Below are positions 1,157 to 62,940 of a DNA stretch of 64,000 nt, piece by piece. The notes under the pieces are model-generated. The model did no database searches. It was not told the origin of the DNA and worked only from the letters and a program-made list of their open reading frames with translations. The stretch is from the NCBI GenBank assembly GCA_963921795.1, contig OY997639.1:62233394-62297393 (forward strand), given 5' to 3'. A program made the position numbers and the translations under genes. Each line of letters starts with the position of its first letter. Position 1 is the first letter of the stretch. Origin of the DNA: Nannobrachium achirus (lineage: Eukaryota > Chordata > Actinopteri > Myctophiformes > Myctophidae).

Positions 1157-1231
1157 GAAAAATAGCCAATCTATAGTCAATCGATAAGGTCACAACGTGC
1201 GATGTCTTGTGAGCTTGTATATTGGCTAGAT
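1157..1231. repeat. Palindrome module copy 1 (degenerate)
   Basis: aatagccaatctatag ... ttgtgagcttgtatattggc. Arms imperfect. Confidence 0.5.
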
Positions 1232-1719
1232 TTGGTACTTTTGTGTGACAAGGTCATACTACAAAGTATAAATTAGGGCATTAAAAACATTAAACTATGA
1301 AATACGGTGAGTGATACAAAGTTTCTGTCCAACGATATTTGAGACTGCCATGTGAGTCCACAACACACAAGAACCCAACCTGCACCCATCAGAAAACCAG
1401 ACACAGGGAGAGGAGGAGAGATAGAGTAGTGAGGTGGGGAGGGGAGGGGAGGGGGAGATAAAGGATAGAAATAGGGAGATTACAGTTAATCCCTCATAAA
1501 ATGAGTGCATTTGTTTATGAAGCTTAAAAAATCTCCCATTTAGAATATGGAATAGTAATCCAGCTACAGAGATCATTTAATCAGCAGCCACATCCAGCAG
1601 AGCCACTCTCTCCCATCTCCCCCATCTTGTCCCTCCCATTAAAACCAGCAGCAGCAGGGACGTGCAGAGAATGAGAATGTTAGAGAGGCAGGGGCTGACA
1701 TTTCTAAAAGGGCCTTTTG

Positions 1720-1804
1720 GTGAAAATATCGAAAATTGCAGACCTCCATGCTCACAACGCGTCACGCTGCGACGCGTTGTGAGCTTAGAGGTTGGCTATT
1801 TTCG
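1720..1804. repeat. Palindrome module copy 2
   Basis: Core gctcacaacgcgtc / gacgcgttgtgagc is a perfect palindrome around a 7-base tip, with outer gaaaat...attttc arms. Confidence 0.7.
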
Positions 1805-1999
1805 GTGCTTGATACCACTCTGAACTAAGCATAATCAAGTGAACACTGGAGATGTGGCGTAATGGCATGGATTTCTAGAGAGGGCAATTATTTTAACATA
1901 GATGCTGCATTCAAGTTCAGGAGAGTTTGGACAAGGCAATTCTCTTGAATGCTGCCTTCAGGTATGGCATGGAAAGATTGCATTTGCATTTCTTTCACC

Positions 2000-2560
2000 A
2001 TAGTAAAAACTGCATTTATGGTCTGGAGAGGGCACTTTTTACAGACAGATAAAAGGGCAGGGGCTCAAGCCCCCTTTGATGTCTATGTGTGCACGTGCCT
2101 GAGCAGCAGCCCCTGTCCAGCCCCACTCCACCCCCCTGCATCCATCCATCTATCCTCTCCTCCATCCCATGCATTAGGTGGTGAGTCAAGTACCAGTTTA
2201 CTGCCTAATATTAACCCTCTCGCTACCCGCTGTGTCTTAATCCCCCGCCCCAGTGCACTAGAACTGGGTCGCCCCGCTCTGTCTTTAATAGTGACCCCTG
2301 CTTTAGCCTTTTCCCTCCCCGACACTCTGAAAGCGCACAATACCTTAAAAGGCAGCGCTAATCTGCCCTTAAGTGGGAGCTATGCCGGCATAATGCATCT
2401 TAAGCATGCTCGCCACCTAAGTCCTGTTAACTGTCTACTGTTCCAATTATACGGTGCGATAATCACAGTGTTTTAATCGAAAGTACGGACGGATATTTTC
2501 CTGATTGCTGCGTGGATGAGCATAAATGATGTAAGGCCCAGGAGCTTAGGGGAGATATAT
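2000..2560. other. No gene seen; non-repetitive stretch
   Basis: Balanced composition and no recognised repeat. The long + frame here (1949-2476) has no splice context or family resemblance. Could be a conserved non-coding element; comparison is needed to say. Confidence 0.3.
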
Positions 2561-2570
2561 GGGGAAAAAT

Positions 2571-2856
2571 CAAACCTTGGTTTGAAGTGGAGCGGTGAAT
2601 TTGAGCAGCTGTACCCTATTTGAGTGAGTGAGTGAAATGCCTAAACTGTAAACTGGGCCTGTGAGTGAGTGGTGAGTGTGCCTGGCCTGCACAAAACAGC
2701 GCCCCTCCTTTAACTAGTGTGTTGTGTGTGGCCACTCAAGGTATTGCCAGGCTACGGACACGGCCAGCCAGCCAGCCAGCCAGCCAGCCACCCAGCCACC
2801 CACCCACATACCCACGGACATACCTGTCTATTGGGAGCGCTTTCACCGCTCCAAAA
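2571..2856. mobile_element. Small TIR element, family copy 1
   Basis: The left end gaagtggagcggtgaatttg and the right end tttcaccgctccaaaa pair through ggagcggtga/tcaccgctcc. The same two ends bracket 25158-25724. The interior here includes a (CAGC)n run. Confidence 0.45.
2759..2812. repeat. (CAGC)n tetramer tract
   Basis: cagccagccagc... grading into cacccacccaca. Confidence 0.9.
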
Positions 2857-3876
2857 ACCACTGTGTCCTTTATTTGACGCGGTGACAGTGTTAACATCTT
2901 TACTTTTTCTTTTTTCATAAGGGTTAGGGACTTAGGGTCACAGCAGTTGTTTATGGGTGAAAGTGAGATTTGCCATTTAATCCAGTCATCCAAACACCAA
3001 TCCCCCCCTGGCCCCTGCGGCCTCCCACCCTTTGTTTAAAATGGGGCTACGAGGGTATCAGTCAGTCTAGTCTCTTGTGCCTATTAATGATCCTGGGACT
3101 TAATTTTGTCTGCTTTATTCTACGTTCTACCCTATCCTATTCTGTTGTACCCTACCCCACTAAATGACACCATACTGAACACCATTCTATTCTACTATTG
3201 TACTTGTAATTGTACTATTTTCTGCTATTTTCCAGGTTGCTTTCTGGTGAGGGGCACTTAGATGAAAGCGTGAAGCCAGAAAAATAAGGATAGAAAGCTT
3301 AATAGATTTTAATCCCTTGCCTCACTCAGGCATGCTTGTATTCCTTTCCTATCTTTGTCTCTCCCTCCCTCTCTCTCCCTCCCCCCCCCCCCCCTCTCTC
3401 TCTCTTTCTCTCTCTCTCTATTTTTTTTACCGTTTTCTATGTGAACTGGGCCAGTGAGTTTAAGTCAACACTTTCAAACCACACAGCTTAATTTATACAC
3501 CCAGAATCGTCGCCAAAACACCACAACATGAATCTAGGTGATAGAGCTCCCCCGACTCCAATCCACCCACCACCACCACACTTACACGCACGCACGCACG
3601 CACGCACGCACACACGCAAGCTCTTTTCTAATGTAACTTAACCACACGACTCCCAACTTTTGAGATTAACAGAACAGTAGCAGGTGTGGGATAACCTAAA
3701 CCTACAACCATGTTGTGAGCAATTTTCTAATGCAAAATATTATGAGTTGGTGATATTTGCACATTTTAACTCTAATAACTAATAACTCACAATGCAGAAA
3801 CTTGACCGTAGAGACAACTTCTCAACTTCACAACACAAATTCATCTTCTCTCCTTGAAAGACAGACAGAGACATGT

Positions 3877-3960
3877 ACACACACACACACACACCACACA
3901 CACACACACACACACACACACACACACACACACACACACACACACACACACACACACACA
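3877..3960. repeat. (CA)n microsatellite
   Basis: About 80 bp of CA repeats with one interruption. Nearby 3361-3420 is a C/CT homopolymer-type tract and 3581-3616 a (GCAC)n run. Confidence 0.95.
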
Positions 3961-4129
3961 CTAAAAAAACTACAATATGACGTCGTTCAGAGTTTCGGGC
4001 GGCAGGTACCGTCATTAATTCGGCTGTTCGGTGCCACAGAGATTTTGTGACTCCCCGAACCGAACCGAAATTCTGCTCTAAAAGTGGAGTAGGCCCTTAG
4101 TCTTTTAGTTTCATCAGAGAGGTCATAAC

Positions 4130-61087: not shown

Positions 61088-61117
61088 GCTAAAACAAGCT
61101 CACAACGCGTCACGTCA
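61088..61117. repeat. Palindrome module copy 17 (half)
   Basis: gctaaaacaagctcacaacg cgtcacgtc, followed by caaaatagggatgccagggg and aagtggttaa, the outer unit in reverse. Confidence 0.5.
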
Positions 61118-61310
61118 AACTTTGCCTATAATGCCAATGCCCAAAATAGGGATGCCAGGGGTTTAAAGTGGTTAAATAATGAAAAGTATTAGAACTTGTA
61201 ACAGTAACCCATAACTACAACCATTTGGAACAGGGTTTTTCCCTCGATTTCTTCTTTTTCATTTCATGAAAATTAATCGTTTTGGATATATACAAGGTTT
61301 CCACTCGACA

Positions 61311-61570
61311 GTGGTGTAAAGTAACTAAGTAAATGTACTTAAGTACAATTTTGAGGTACTTTTACTTATTGGAGTATTTCCAATTTTCAGTACCTTTACG
61401 TTTACTAAATCTCAGAGTCAAAGATTGTGCTTTTACTGCACTTGAATTACTTAGTTACTACTAGTTACTTCATATATTTGGATTATTATTACAAAACATA
61501 CATTAATTGAAAATAGCAGATCTACAAGCTCAAAATACATTGTAGATGGGCTATTTTCAAAATATATTTT
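61311..61570. mobile_element. hAT-like element (CAGTGGTGTAAAGTAACTAA)
   Basis: Starts cagtggtgtaaagtaactaa with a body related to 29874. A short palindrome module (61508-61560) is inserted in its interior. Right end not found. Confidence 0.55.
61508..61560. repeat. Palindrome module copy 18 (short tip)
   Basis: tgaaaatagcagatctacaa gctc ... tgtagatgggctattttca. Inside the hAT-like element at 61311. Confidence 0.65.
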
Positions 61571-61584
61571 TTAATGATATGTCT

Positions 61585-61735
61585 TTGGGCTTTTTTATGC
61601 CTTTATTGACTGACAGGAAATGGGGAGAGAAATGGGGTGTGTCACGCAGCAAAGGTAGTCAGGATTGGGAATCGAACCAGCAACATGCTGTCAGGCTACA
61701 CTGAGCCTAAGTGAGTGCTTTTTCCACCACTGCCA
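61585..61735 (-). mobile_element. Third copy of the 54000-type SINE
   Basis: Contains tgacaggaaatggggagag, gtgtcacgcagcaaaggtag and tgggaatcgaaccagcaaca. On the minus strand the last is a B-box GGTTCGATTCCC. Same family as 54163-54328. Confidence 0.55.
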
Positions 61736-61739
61736 CTCG

Positions 61740-62870
61740 ACCGCGACGATATATGCACGCGTCGCTGCAGTGCCTTTCCAAAGAGAATTAATATTTCAGC
61801 AACAAAAGTGGCTGCATGCCAAATCCAGAGAGCCAGTTCACAGTTGTTAACGTGGTTAAAGTGTTGACCCAGAAATAGTTTCTGTGCGTTTTGTTCTCTC
61901 CCAGTCAGAGTATGTGACGCAGAATGCCCCACTGTGTTTGTGAATCATTCTGCACTTCTGCAGTGCTGCAGATGGACCTTTCAGTGAAAGCTATTGCATA
62001 GCTCGGTGTTTGGTAGTGGCTGGACAAAATCAAATATCACATCAAATATTCAGACCAAATACCATGATATCGATATTGTGACGATAATATTGTATCGTGA
62101 CGATAATAATATAACGTTACTTTAATGTTTTCAAAGACTTTCAAAAATAGTGAAAATATCAGATGTATTTACTATTTTTAAACATTTTAGTCAATTTCTG
62201 CGAGTATTAAATAAGGCTTAAGTGCCATATCACAATATTACAATATTATTCTTTCAGTATGCATGTCTCCTCAGGCACTTCATGAACAGTAAACAATGAA
62301 TATTAGCTGGGCCTGCAAATCCATTGTCTTTACCAGCCTCCAGGCTTCTGCTCTGACTCTCAGTGTCAATAAATGAAAACAAGTGAAATTATTTCTTTAA
62401 AAAAACTGCCTGGGGACATGGAAAAAAATAAACAGTGTTATCAAGGGTATCGCATTGCGGCAGTTTATATAAATATTACCAGTGTAATTGCAAGTCTGGG
62501 TATTCACTCTGAGGGGTTATGGTTTTGCATATTATGCAGGCTGCATTGTACAATCATTGTAATAGTCACTAGACCTGTAAAATAATATGCAAGGTTTCAT
62601 TATCATAACGCCGATCGATAATGTGCTCAGACTGCTCACACAGGCTGTCCATGTCGCTTTCCCCTCCTTTCTAAAGCATGTTGTCAAGATTTGGCCTGAA
62701 TCTGCACTAAACTAAGAGTTCAGGCTCCCCTCCCTAACAGTATTGAGAAACCTTGCCATCTGGTCTCCCTCATATTTTAAAACCTGCTCACCCACTCCCA
62801 TGCCAATGCTTCAATGGTTTCAAAGATGGCTAATGAGCTGTATCTGTGCAAAATCAATTTAATTTCTAGA
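61740..62870. other. clstn3 intron or upstream, AT-rich repeats
   Basis: 62040-62120 has cgatattgtgacgataatat-type sequence seen in teleost hAT MITEs. Otherwise nothing recognised. Confidence 0.35.
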
Positions 62871-62903
62871 TTTAACCACATCCCAATTCTGGGGTGACAT
62901 CTG

Positions 62904-62940
62904 TTGAAAATCGCTGATCTACAAACTCCCAATGCATCAC
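62904..62940. repeat. Palindrome module copy 19 (half)
   Basis: tgaaaatcgctgatctacaa actcccaatgcatcac, preceded by ttaaccacatcccaattctg, the outer unit. Confidence 0.45.

Follow-up and report, generated by a model that had tools for sequence, protein, structure and literature searches.

The 64,000-nucleotide stretch of Nannobrachium achirus contig OY997639.1 analysed here (the window; C2:62233394-62297393 of a genome of 1,658,514,493 bases) carries twenty sites of a short palindromic module that recurs throughout the genome. We suggest that this module is a non-coding palindromic core of 73–75 bp that sits inside many different miniature inverted-repeat transposable elements (MITEs) and has multiplied together with these hosts, a reading to which we assign a probability of roughly 0.6. 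It is supported by the very high copy number of the core, by its sharp edges within otherwise unlike flanks, and by arms that in family A diverge as fast as the flanks do.

Copy number and anatomy of the core

The initial annotation had proposed about twenty copies of a palindromic module in these 64 kb, and this is borne out, as an arm profile recovers all 20 named sites (19 and a half copy near 14950) at ≥10 bits. In the window AAAATAGCNGATCTACAAGC at ≤3 mismatches has 18 matches versus 0.01 expected from shuffles. Both arms exceed 10 bits at 7 of the 20 sites, the other 13 consisting of one arm with a decayed or missing partner. Over the window and loci L001-L028 together (288 kb, of which the 24 kb of L001-L008 had been retrieved by means of the arm), a score of 10 bits or more is attained by 157 arms, versus 1 in a control read backwards. 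Counted across the whole genome, the exact 20-base arm occurs 107,608 times in forward and 107,740 times in reverse orientation, compared with 0 occurrences of the pattern read backwards, so the module is clearly not confined to this locus. Twenty sampled 10 kb stretches (200 kb; random draws from the 3-30 Mb range of contigs C1-C20, not an even sample of the genome) contain 73 copies, 35 of them two-armed, or one per 2.7 kb. This extrapolates to ∼6.1 × 10^5 copies in the genome (4.7-7.6 × 10^5, counting error only), or to 5.9 × 10^5 if two tandem-repeat stretches are left out. With 20 copies in 64 kb against 73 in 200 kb, the window itself is not enriched. Elsewhere the arm 18-mer was found in one viral and two prokaryote contigs, which we take as chance, and six arm strings had no match in the literature searched.

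The full unit is made up of the arm, (T)GAAAATAGCNGATCTACAAGCTCACAACGCGTC, its mirror and, between the two, ∼7 nt of tip; it is non-coding and measures 73 bp by profile edges in 51 of 110 two-armed copies. Only the better copies have the complete mirror of the original description. The variable tip noted at the same time is confirmed by comparison among copies, with tip types that differ from family to family. The CACAACGCCTC-N7-GAGGCGTTGTG form is present at 30,484 loci genome-wide and the GCGTC/GACGC form at 4,623, each with 0 in the backward control; both are concordant at the inner site, where the discordant form would be CACAACGCGTC-N7-GAGGCGTTGTG, and we claim no test of concordance from these counts.

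Host families of the core

The flank analysis started at the core edge and moved away from it. It covered the window, the sampled stretches other than the two with tandem repeats, and 80 loci chosen because they hold an exact arm; L001-L008 were excluded. This placed 201 of 282 half-flanks in 27 clusters, and 78 of 124 in 19 clusters for the set not picked by arm (the window and 18 of the 20 stretches). Pairing the left and right cluster labels, which were merged by hand, gives nine host families. At least nine repeat families thus contain the core. Among 107 cluster representatives the flanks share 0.28, 0.19 and 0.09 bits of information at positions +1 to +3. Farther out the values are mostly at background level, apart from a weak rise to 0.12 and 0.19 bits at +6 and +7 (null 99.9%, 0.13). 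The module is therefore sharply bounded, ending 2-3 bp past the core edge, in unlike surroundings.

Family A is a MITE of ∼210 bp with TTAA at both ends and inverted CCACTTGAACC/GGTTCAAGTGG; a complete element reads TTAACCACTTGAACCC...AGCC, core, GGCAAAGAG...GACGGTTCAAGTGGTTAA and is 209 bp long in L102. A strict end motif finds seven family A loci, of which L030, L032, L090 and L102 carry TTAACCACTTG...CAAGTGGTTAA, L096 has one change at the left, and L071 and L084 are altered at the right. Three elements of the family lie in the window (34637-34856, 38299-38533 and, with a damaged right TTAA, 9643-9825), and the family is often nested in a longer repeat ending CAGGGGTCTTCAAC. The GGTTNAAGTGGTTAA end motif at ≤3 mismatches is found in 60 of 281 half-flanks versus 7 and 6 in two controls. 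An empty TTAA site of element A was sought in 336 kb of sampled sequence, with 0 spanning matches. Among the other hosts, family C has a consensus start of TTAACCC and, in at least some copies (L009, L025, L077, L097), two inverted end regions that each hold a core. A ∼494 bp CAGTGTTG...CAACACTG repeat, which we would take to be hAT-like by its ends, has the core near its middle, family E is ∼260 bp long with ends CGTTGTCGGGTGGAAACCTTG, and the copies at 14950 and 37323 sit in a repeat beginning TAGGGCTGTCAC that is presumably also hAT-like.

Tandem arrangements were also observed. Units bearing the core or weakly matching it lie ∼1.4 kb apart in L022 and 4.9 kb apart in L010 (weak arms), tandem units near the start of C1 (L001-L004) have flanks that are 97-99.6% alike, and exact arms occur ∼8 kb apart at C1:2.33-2.37 Mb.

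We propose that several MITE lineages acquired the core, each probably once, since it occupies one fixed place in the family members compared, and that the host transposases would then have made the ∼6 × 10^5 copies. Copies of the core decay, their tips shrink, and some host copies lack the core or retain only parts of it, which would result from slippage or hairpin cutting. Closely similar cores in unlike flanks suggest that it passed between lineages, unless the hosts are one ancient family; such passage may have occurred by capture during faulty gap repair or through an extinct mobile stage of the core itself. A stronger version of this proposal, which we put forward only tentatively, is that the core was handed many times among MITEs of different superfamilies without any mobility system of its own, its hairpin perhaps favouring capture in repair or aiding transposition, and in this way became one of the most numerous sequences of a vertebrate genome.

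Shrinkage and probable loss of the core

Of the copies of ≤66 bp, 18 of 39 still form a perfect hairpin of ≥6 bp at their centre. Simulated deletions of matching size, placed randomly in full-length copies, leave such a hairpin in 24%, and the full-length copies themselves pass this test in 33 of 68 cases. Some shortened copies end at self-complementary words such as AGCT, and as words of this type are direct repeats across the palindrome they would be natural slippage points.

In family E, a search with the flanks joined without the core found 16 join-spanning loci among 40 scored candidates of 1115, a number that is not a frequency because the search was built to favour such loci. Recognisable arm pieces persist in 5 of the 16 core-less loci (L118, L122, L125, L126, L127), and short scars of other kinds are seen elsewhere. 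The joins of L119, L123 and L129 contain one or two more TAG units than those of L116 and L120, which simple deletion does not explain. A tree of 25 family E host copies intermixes core-bearing and core-less rows, and on these sequences loss of the core rather than its gain is the simpler reading. In family C, 3 of 40 scored loci span the join: L113, in which the left core is cleanly gone and the right core cut down, L114, which retains a short core remnant, and L112, which retains half. A gap at L016:8850 was considered as an empty site of family B and rejected, as it could equally be a deletion product with AATAG repeats flanking it.

These absences also bear on a different explanation, in which the palindrome itself is or once was mobile, as a free element of ∼75 bp that makes no target duplication or one of 2-3 bp, is able to leave, and has moved among MITE families, the family E scars being its excision footprints. 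The sharp edges in unlike contexts fit such an element, as do the exact flank join in L113 and the near-clean join GTAG|TAGTTT in L116 and L120, and family E can in our reading be parsed as a GTGAAAA...TTTTCAC unit flanked by duplicated TA. Across 22 non-A/non-C contexts, direct repeats within 20 bp have a mean longest length of 4.45 versus 4.04 (11 of 300 shuffles as high), a slight rise that might be weak evidence in the same direction. However, direct repeats exactly at the core edges are not generally over-represented among 81 copies, searched at many offsets. The few exceptions, e.g. 16/81 versus 5.1 and 12/81 versus 3.1 expected at two offsets on the inner side of the core edge, seem to be due to single families and were not accepted as a target duplication. 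Likewise, direct repeats of ≥8 in the 100-bp flanks are found in 22 of 103 copies versus a shuffled mean of 18.8 (range 10-24), the core keeps one position among the family members compared, and the arm pieces in the family E scars are what deletions leave. Taken together, we consider a free element unlikely, though the best of the alternatives.

Inverted symmetry just outside the core is high in the same 81 copies, at 58, 75 and 74% for +1 to +3 versus 30-33%. As many of these copies belong to families A and C, and the longest inverted word in the 22 other contexts (4.55 versus 4.21, shuffle maximum 5.41) is not clearly above shuffles, we do not build on it. One candidate free insertion with a 7-bp repeat, L094, was rejected because its flanks, read by eye, resemble host family 13.

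Relationship among the hosts

It could also be that all hosts descend from one ancient palindrome-bearing TTAA transposon whose flanks have diverged past recognition. The TTAACCACTT end is common to families A and G, family C has a TTAA end, and all of these lie ∼36-45 bp from the core; moreover, near-core flanks compared across clusters give 25 of 5565 pairs at score ≥28, versus 3 with one flank reversed. However, the top-scoring near-core pairs plainly join members of a single family that the clustering had missed, and the same count for far flanks is 17/5565. The cores stay near one consensus while the flanks of other families fail to align, and the host ends differ (TTAA-CC, CAGTGTTG, CGTTGTCGGG). 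We therefore regard common descent of all hosts as improbable, and somewhat more so than a free element.

Variation of the arms

The initial annotation had suggested that the hairpin is kept by compensatory maintenance or by frequent conversion between arms. Arm agreement was scored on positions 1-22 within and between copies with 5000 shuffles. Many of the copies had been selected for having one arm intact, and that arm is accordingly less variable. Agreement in the 26 copies of family C is 0.932 within and 0.932 between copies, equalled or exceeded in 5000/5000 shuffles; the 27 copies of family A give 0.843 versus 0.830, a slight excess (192/5000 shuffles as good). In 53 other copies of mixed families it is 0.840 versus 0.790 (0/5000 shuffles). 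The arms therefore vary independently in C and nearly so in A, and co-vary across the mixed families. As this co-variation lies mainly between families, each family seems to go back to a near-perfect palindrome, and the symmetry appears to belong to the founder of a family and not to its individual copies. Co-variation at arm positions 23-32 was discounted, as it arises at least partly from tip deletions that make the arms overlap. Read in the orientation of the flanks, the family A tip is GCAGCGC in two copies (L044, L024) and GCGCTGC in three (L062, L102, L104), as if its centre had flipped between the arms.

Divergence from consensus was compared between arms and flanks for A, C, D and the CAGTGTTG host, leaving out the picked arms. 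Family A arms differ at 61/594 sites and its flanks at 322/2892, family D at 11/132 and 14/359, and the CAGTGTTG host at 5/110 and 37/688, the last two comparisons on few sites. We conclude that these sequences give no sign of maintenance in A, D or the CAGTGTTG host, and neither compensatory maintenance nor frequent arm-to-arm conversion is supported. Family C is harder to read: its arms are less changed (4/396) than its flanks (94/1018), but its flank consensus is mixed, and selection for an intact arm supplied the loci of 19 of its 26 two-armed copies.

A functional hairpin, whether RNA or cruciform, kept by selection or by arm-to-arm conversion is thus very improbable: the co-variation between families and slightly within A, the lesser change of family C arms and the strong predicted fold of one copy (z-score -10.4 for the 171 nt around the palindrome at 34681) speak for it, but the arms vary independently within C and nearly so in A, family A arms diverge like the flanks, host copies without the core exist, and Rfam gives 0 families at gathering score in the window and, in five other loci outside it, nine matches at E up to 0.1, all below gathering, with six cores matching six different families and none at gathering score.

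Several observations also weigh against a core multiplied inside MITEs. The little-changed arms of family C are one of them. Of the half-flanks, 81 of 282 match no other flank in the sample, which leaves room for free-standing copies. The tree of family E lacks any well supported branch and so does not prove loss over gain.

Comparison with known systems

Short inverted-repeat elements of teleosts were reportedly described in 1999 by Izsvak, one of them under the name Angel, for which we know of no core common to several families. In our data the internal region is more alike between host families than the ends are, as judged by flank clusters and edge information. MITE families are normally expected to share their ends and not their insides (PMC2872659), and the nearest precedent that we found for a shared internal core is the CMITEs of Acropora corals, whose TTAA MITE families are more conserved among one another in a 75-base internal region than in their terminal repeats (PMC2872659). 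CMITEs are ∼100 bp long, are all of the TTAA type and number ∼1,600 copies in one coral; the short inverted-repeat elements of teleosts are cited among the MITEs of the same origin (PMC2872659). Compared by description, the two systems are alike in a shared inside of ∼75 bp, TTAA duplications, tandem arrays and nesting that makes a new element, and differ in that the core here is a palindrome, has other host ends as well and reaches ∼6 × 10^5 copies, hundreds of times more (PMC2872659). A term search of the CMITE paper returned neither palindrome nor hairpin (PMC2872659).

The V domain, one of the highly conserved domains of short interspersed elements, also occurs in the MITE MER6, and so is likewise a module common to unlike non-autonomous elements; however, it is found mainly in retroposons, and the abstract of that work describes no palindromic form (PMC6887750). 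Bacterial REP and REPIN sequences resemble the core in form only, as short palindromes of very high copy number, but they are linked to a TnpA-type enzyme, whereas the core sits in DNA-transposon MITEs (PMC3116915, PMC8266576). As for the hosts, the piggyBac terminal motif is CC[C/T]T (PMC2872659), whereas family A begins CCAC and family C, by consensus, CCCA, and we therefore name host A TTAA-type and not piggyBac. Kolobok elements, with TTAA and 5'-RR ... YY-3' ends (PMC9587614), were rejected for host A, which begins CC and ends GG.

Copies and other features of the window

The copies in the window are listed in Table 1. The left flank of the copy at 61509 is clustered in one flank clustering and unclustered in another.

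Table 1. Copies of the palindromic core and their host elements in the window (paired bit scores are for the left and right arms; clusters are flank clusters)
Position	Strand	Feature	Evidence
1202..1233	-	Arm; weak left partner at 1157 (8.1 bits)	Profile 16.7 bits
1731..1803	.	Two-armed palindrome, host family D	27.7/24.5 bits; clusters 12/16
8863..8894	+	Arm, family A-like flank	19.7 bits; cluster 0
9643..9825	.	TTAA-type MITE around 9738, right TTAA changed to TTAC	Left TTAACCACTTAAACCC, right GGTTTTAAGTGGTTAC
9738..9777	.	40-bp palindrome without tip	20.8/20.8 bits; 20-nt arms 100% complementary, 0 nt between
14935..14966	-	Half copy in TAGGGCTGTCAC-ended repeat	15.1 bits; aligned to 37323 copy
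17102..17167	.	Two-armed palindrome, host family G	34.3/30.2 bits; clusters 7/4
17859..17890	-	Arm; left arm damaged	35.1 bits; cluster 13
18635..18666	-	Arm	25.9 bits; cluster 5
20512..20601	+	Left TTAA end and shortened palindrome, family A-like element	TTAACCATTTGAACC at 20512; arm 14.3 bits
22644..22706	.	Two-armed palindrome, flank unclustered	28.5/10.6 bits
30728..30802	.	Two-armed palindrome, family A-like	12.9/23.8 bits; clusters 0/2
34637..34856	+	Best whole TTAA-flanked family A MITE of the window	TTAACCACTTGAACCC at 34637, TTAA at 34853
34681..34762	.	Two-armed palindrome inside the 34637..34856 MITE	30.9/35.3 bits
37336..37367	-	Arm in TAGGGCTGTCAC-ended repeat	28.5 bits; cluster 17
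38299..38533	.	TTAA-flanked MITE around 38394	TTAACCAAATAAACCC at 38299, GTGGTTAA ending 38533
38394..38449	.	Two-armed palindrome	30.1/29.9 bits
44298..44329	+	Arm, partner broken	40.5 bits
50794..50825	+	Arm, family A	36.7 bits; cluster 2
52451..52482	+	Partial arm	13.9 bits
61079..61110	+	Partial arm; GGTTTAAAGTGGTTAA end downstream	13.6 bits; outer end a weak match
61509..61540	+	Arm, family G-like left flank; weak partner 61540-61559	30.1 bits; partner 12.3 bits
62906..62937	+	Arm, partner broken	22.3 bits

Three inverted repeats in the window lack the core, at 36131-36256 (53-bp arms, 94% complementary), 29561-29644 (27-bp perfect arms) and 58253-58459 (39-bp arms, 92% complementary). 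Translations at 15091-19183 on the forward strand look like exons of a GNB3-like G-protein beta subunit, and those at 30245-34136 on the reverse strand like exons of PEX5. By recognition only, both resemble the vertebrate proteins, which makes a teleost source plausible.

Implications

If our reading is true, a sharply bounded palindrome inside unlike MITEs at ∼6 × 10^5 copies would make the acquisition of internal sequence by MITEs quantitatively testable, and its copies would form a natural record of how a 75-bp palindrome shortens and is lost in what is apparently a vertebrate genome.

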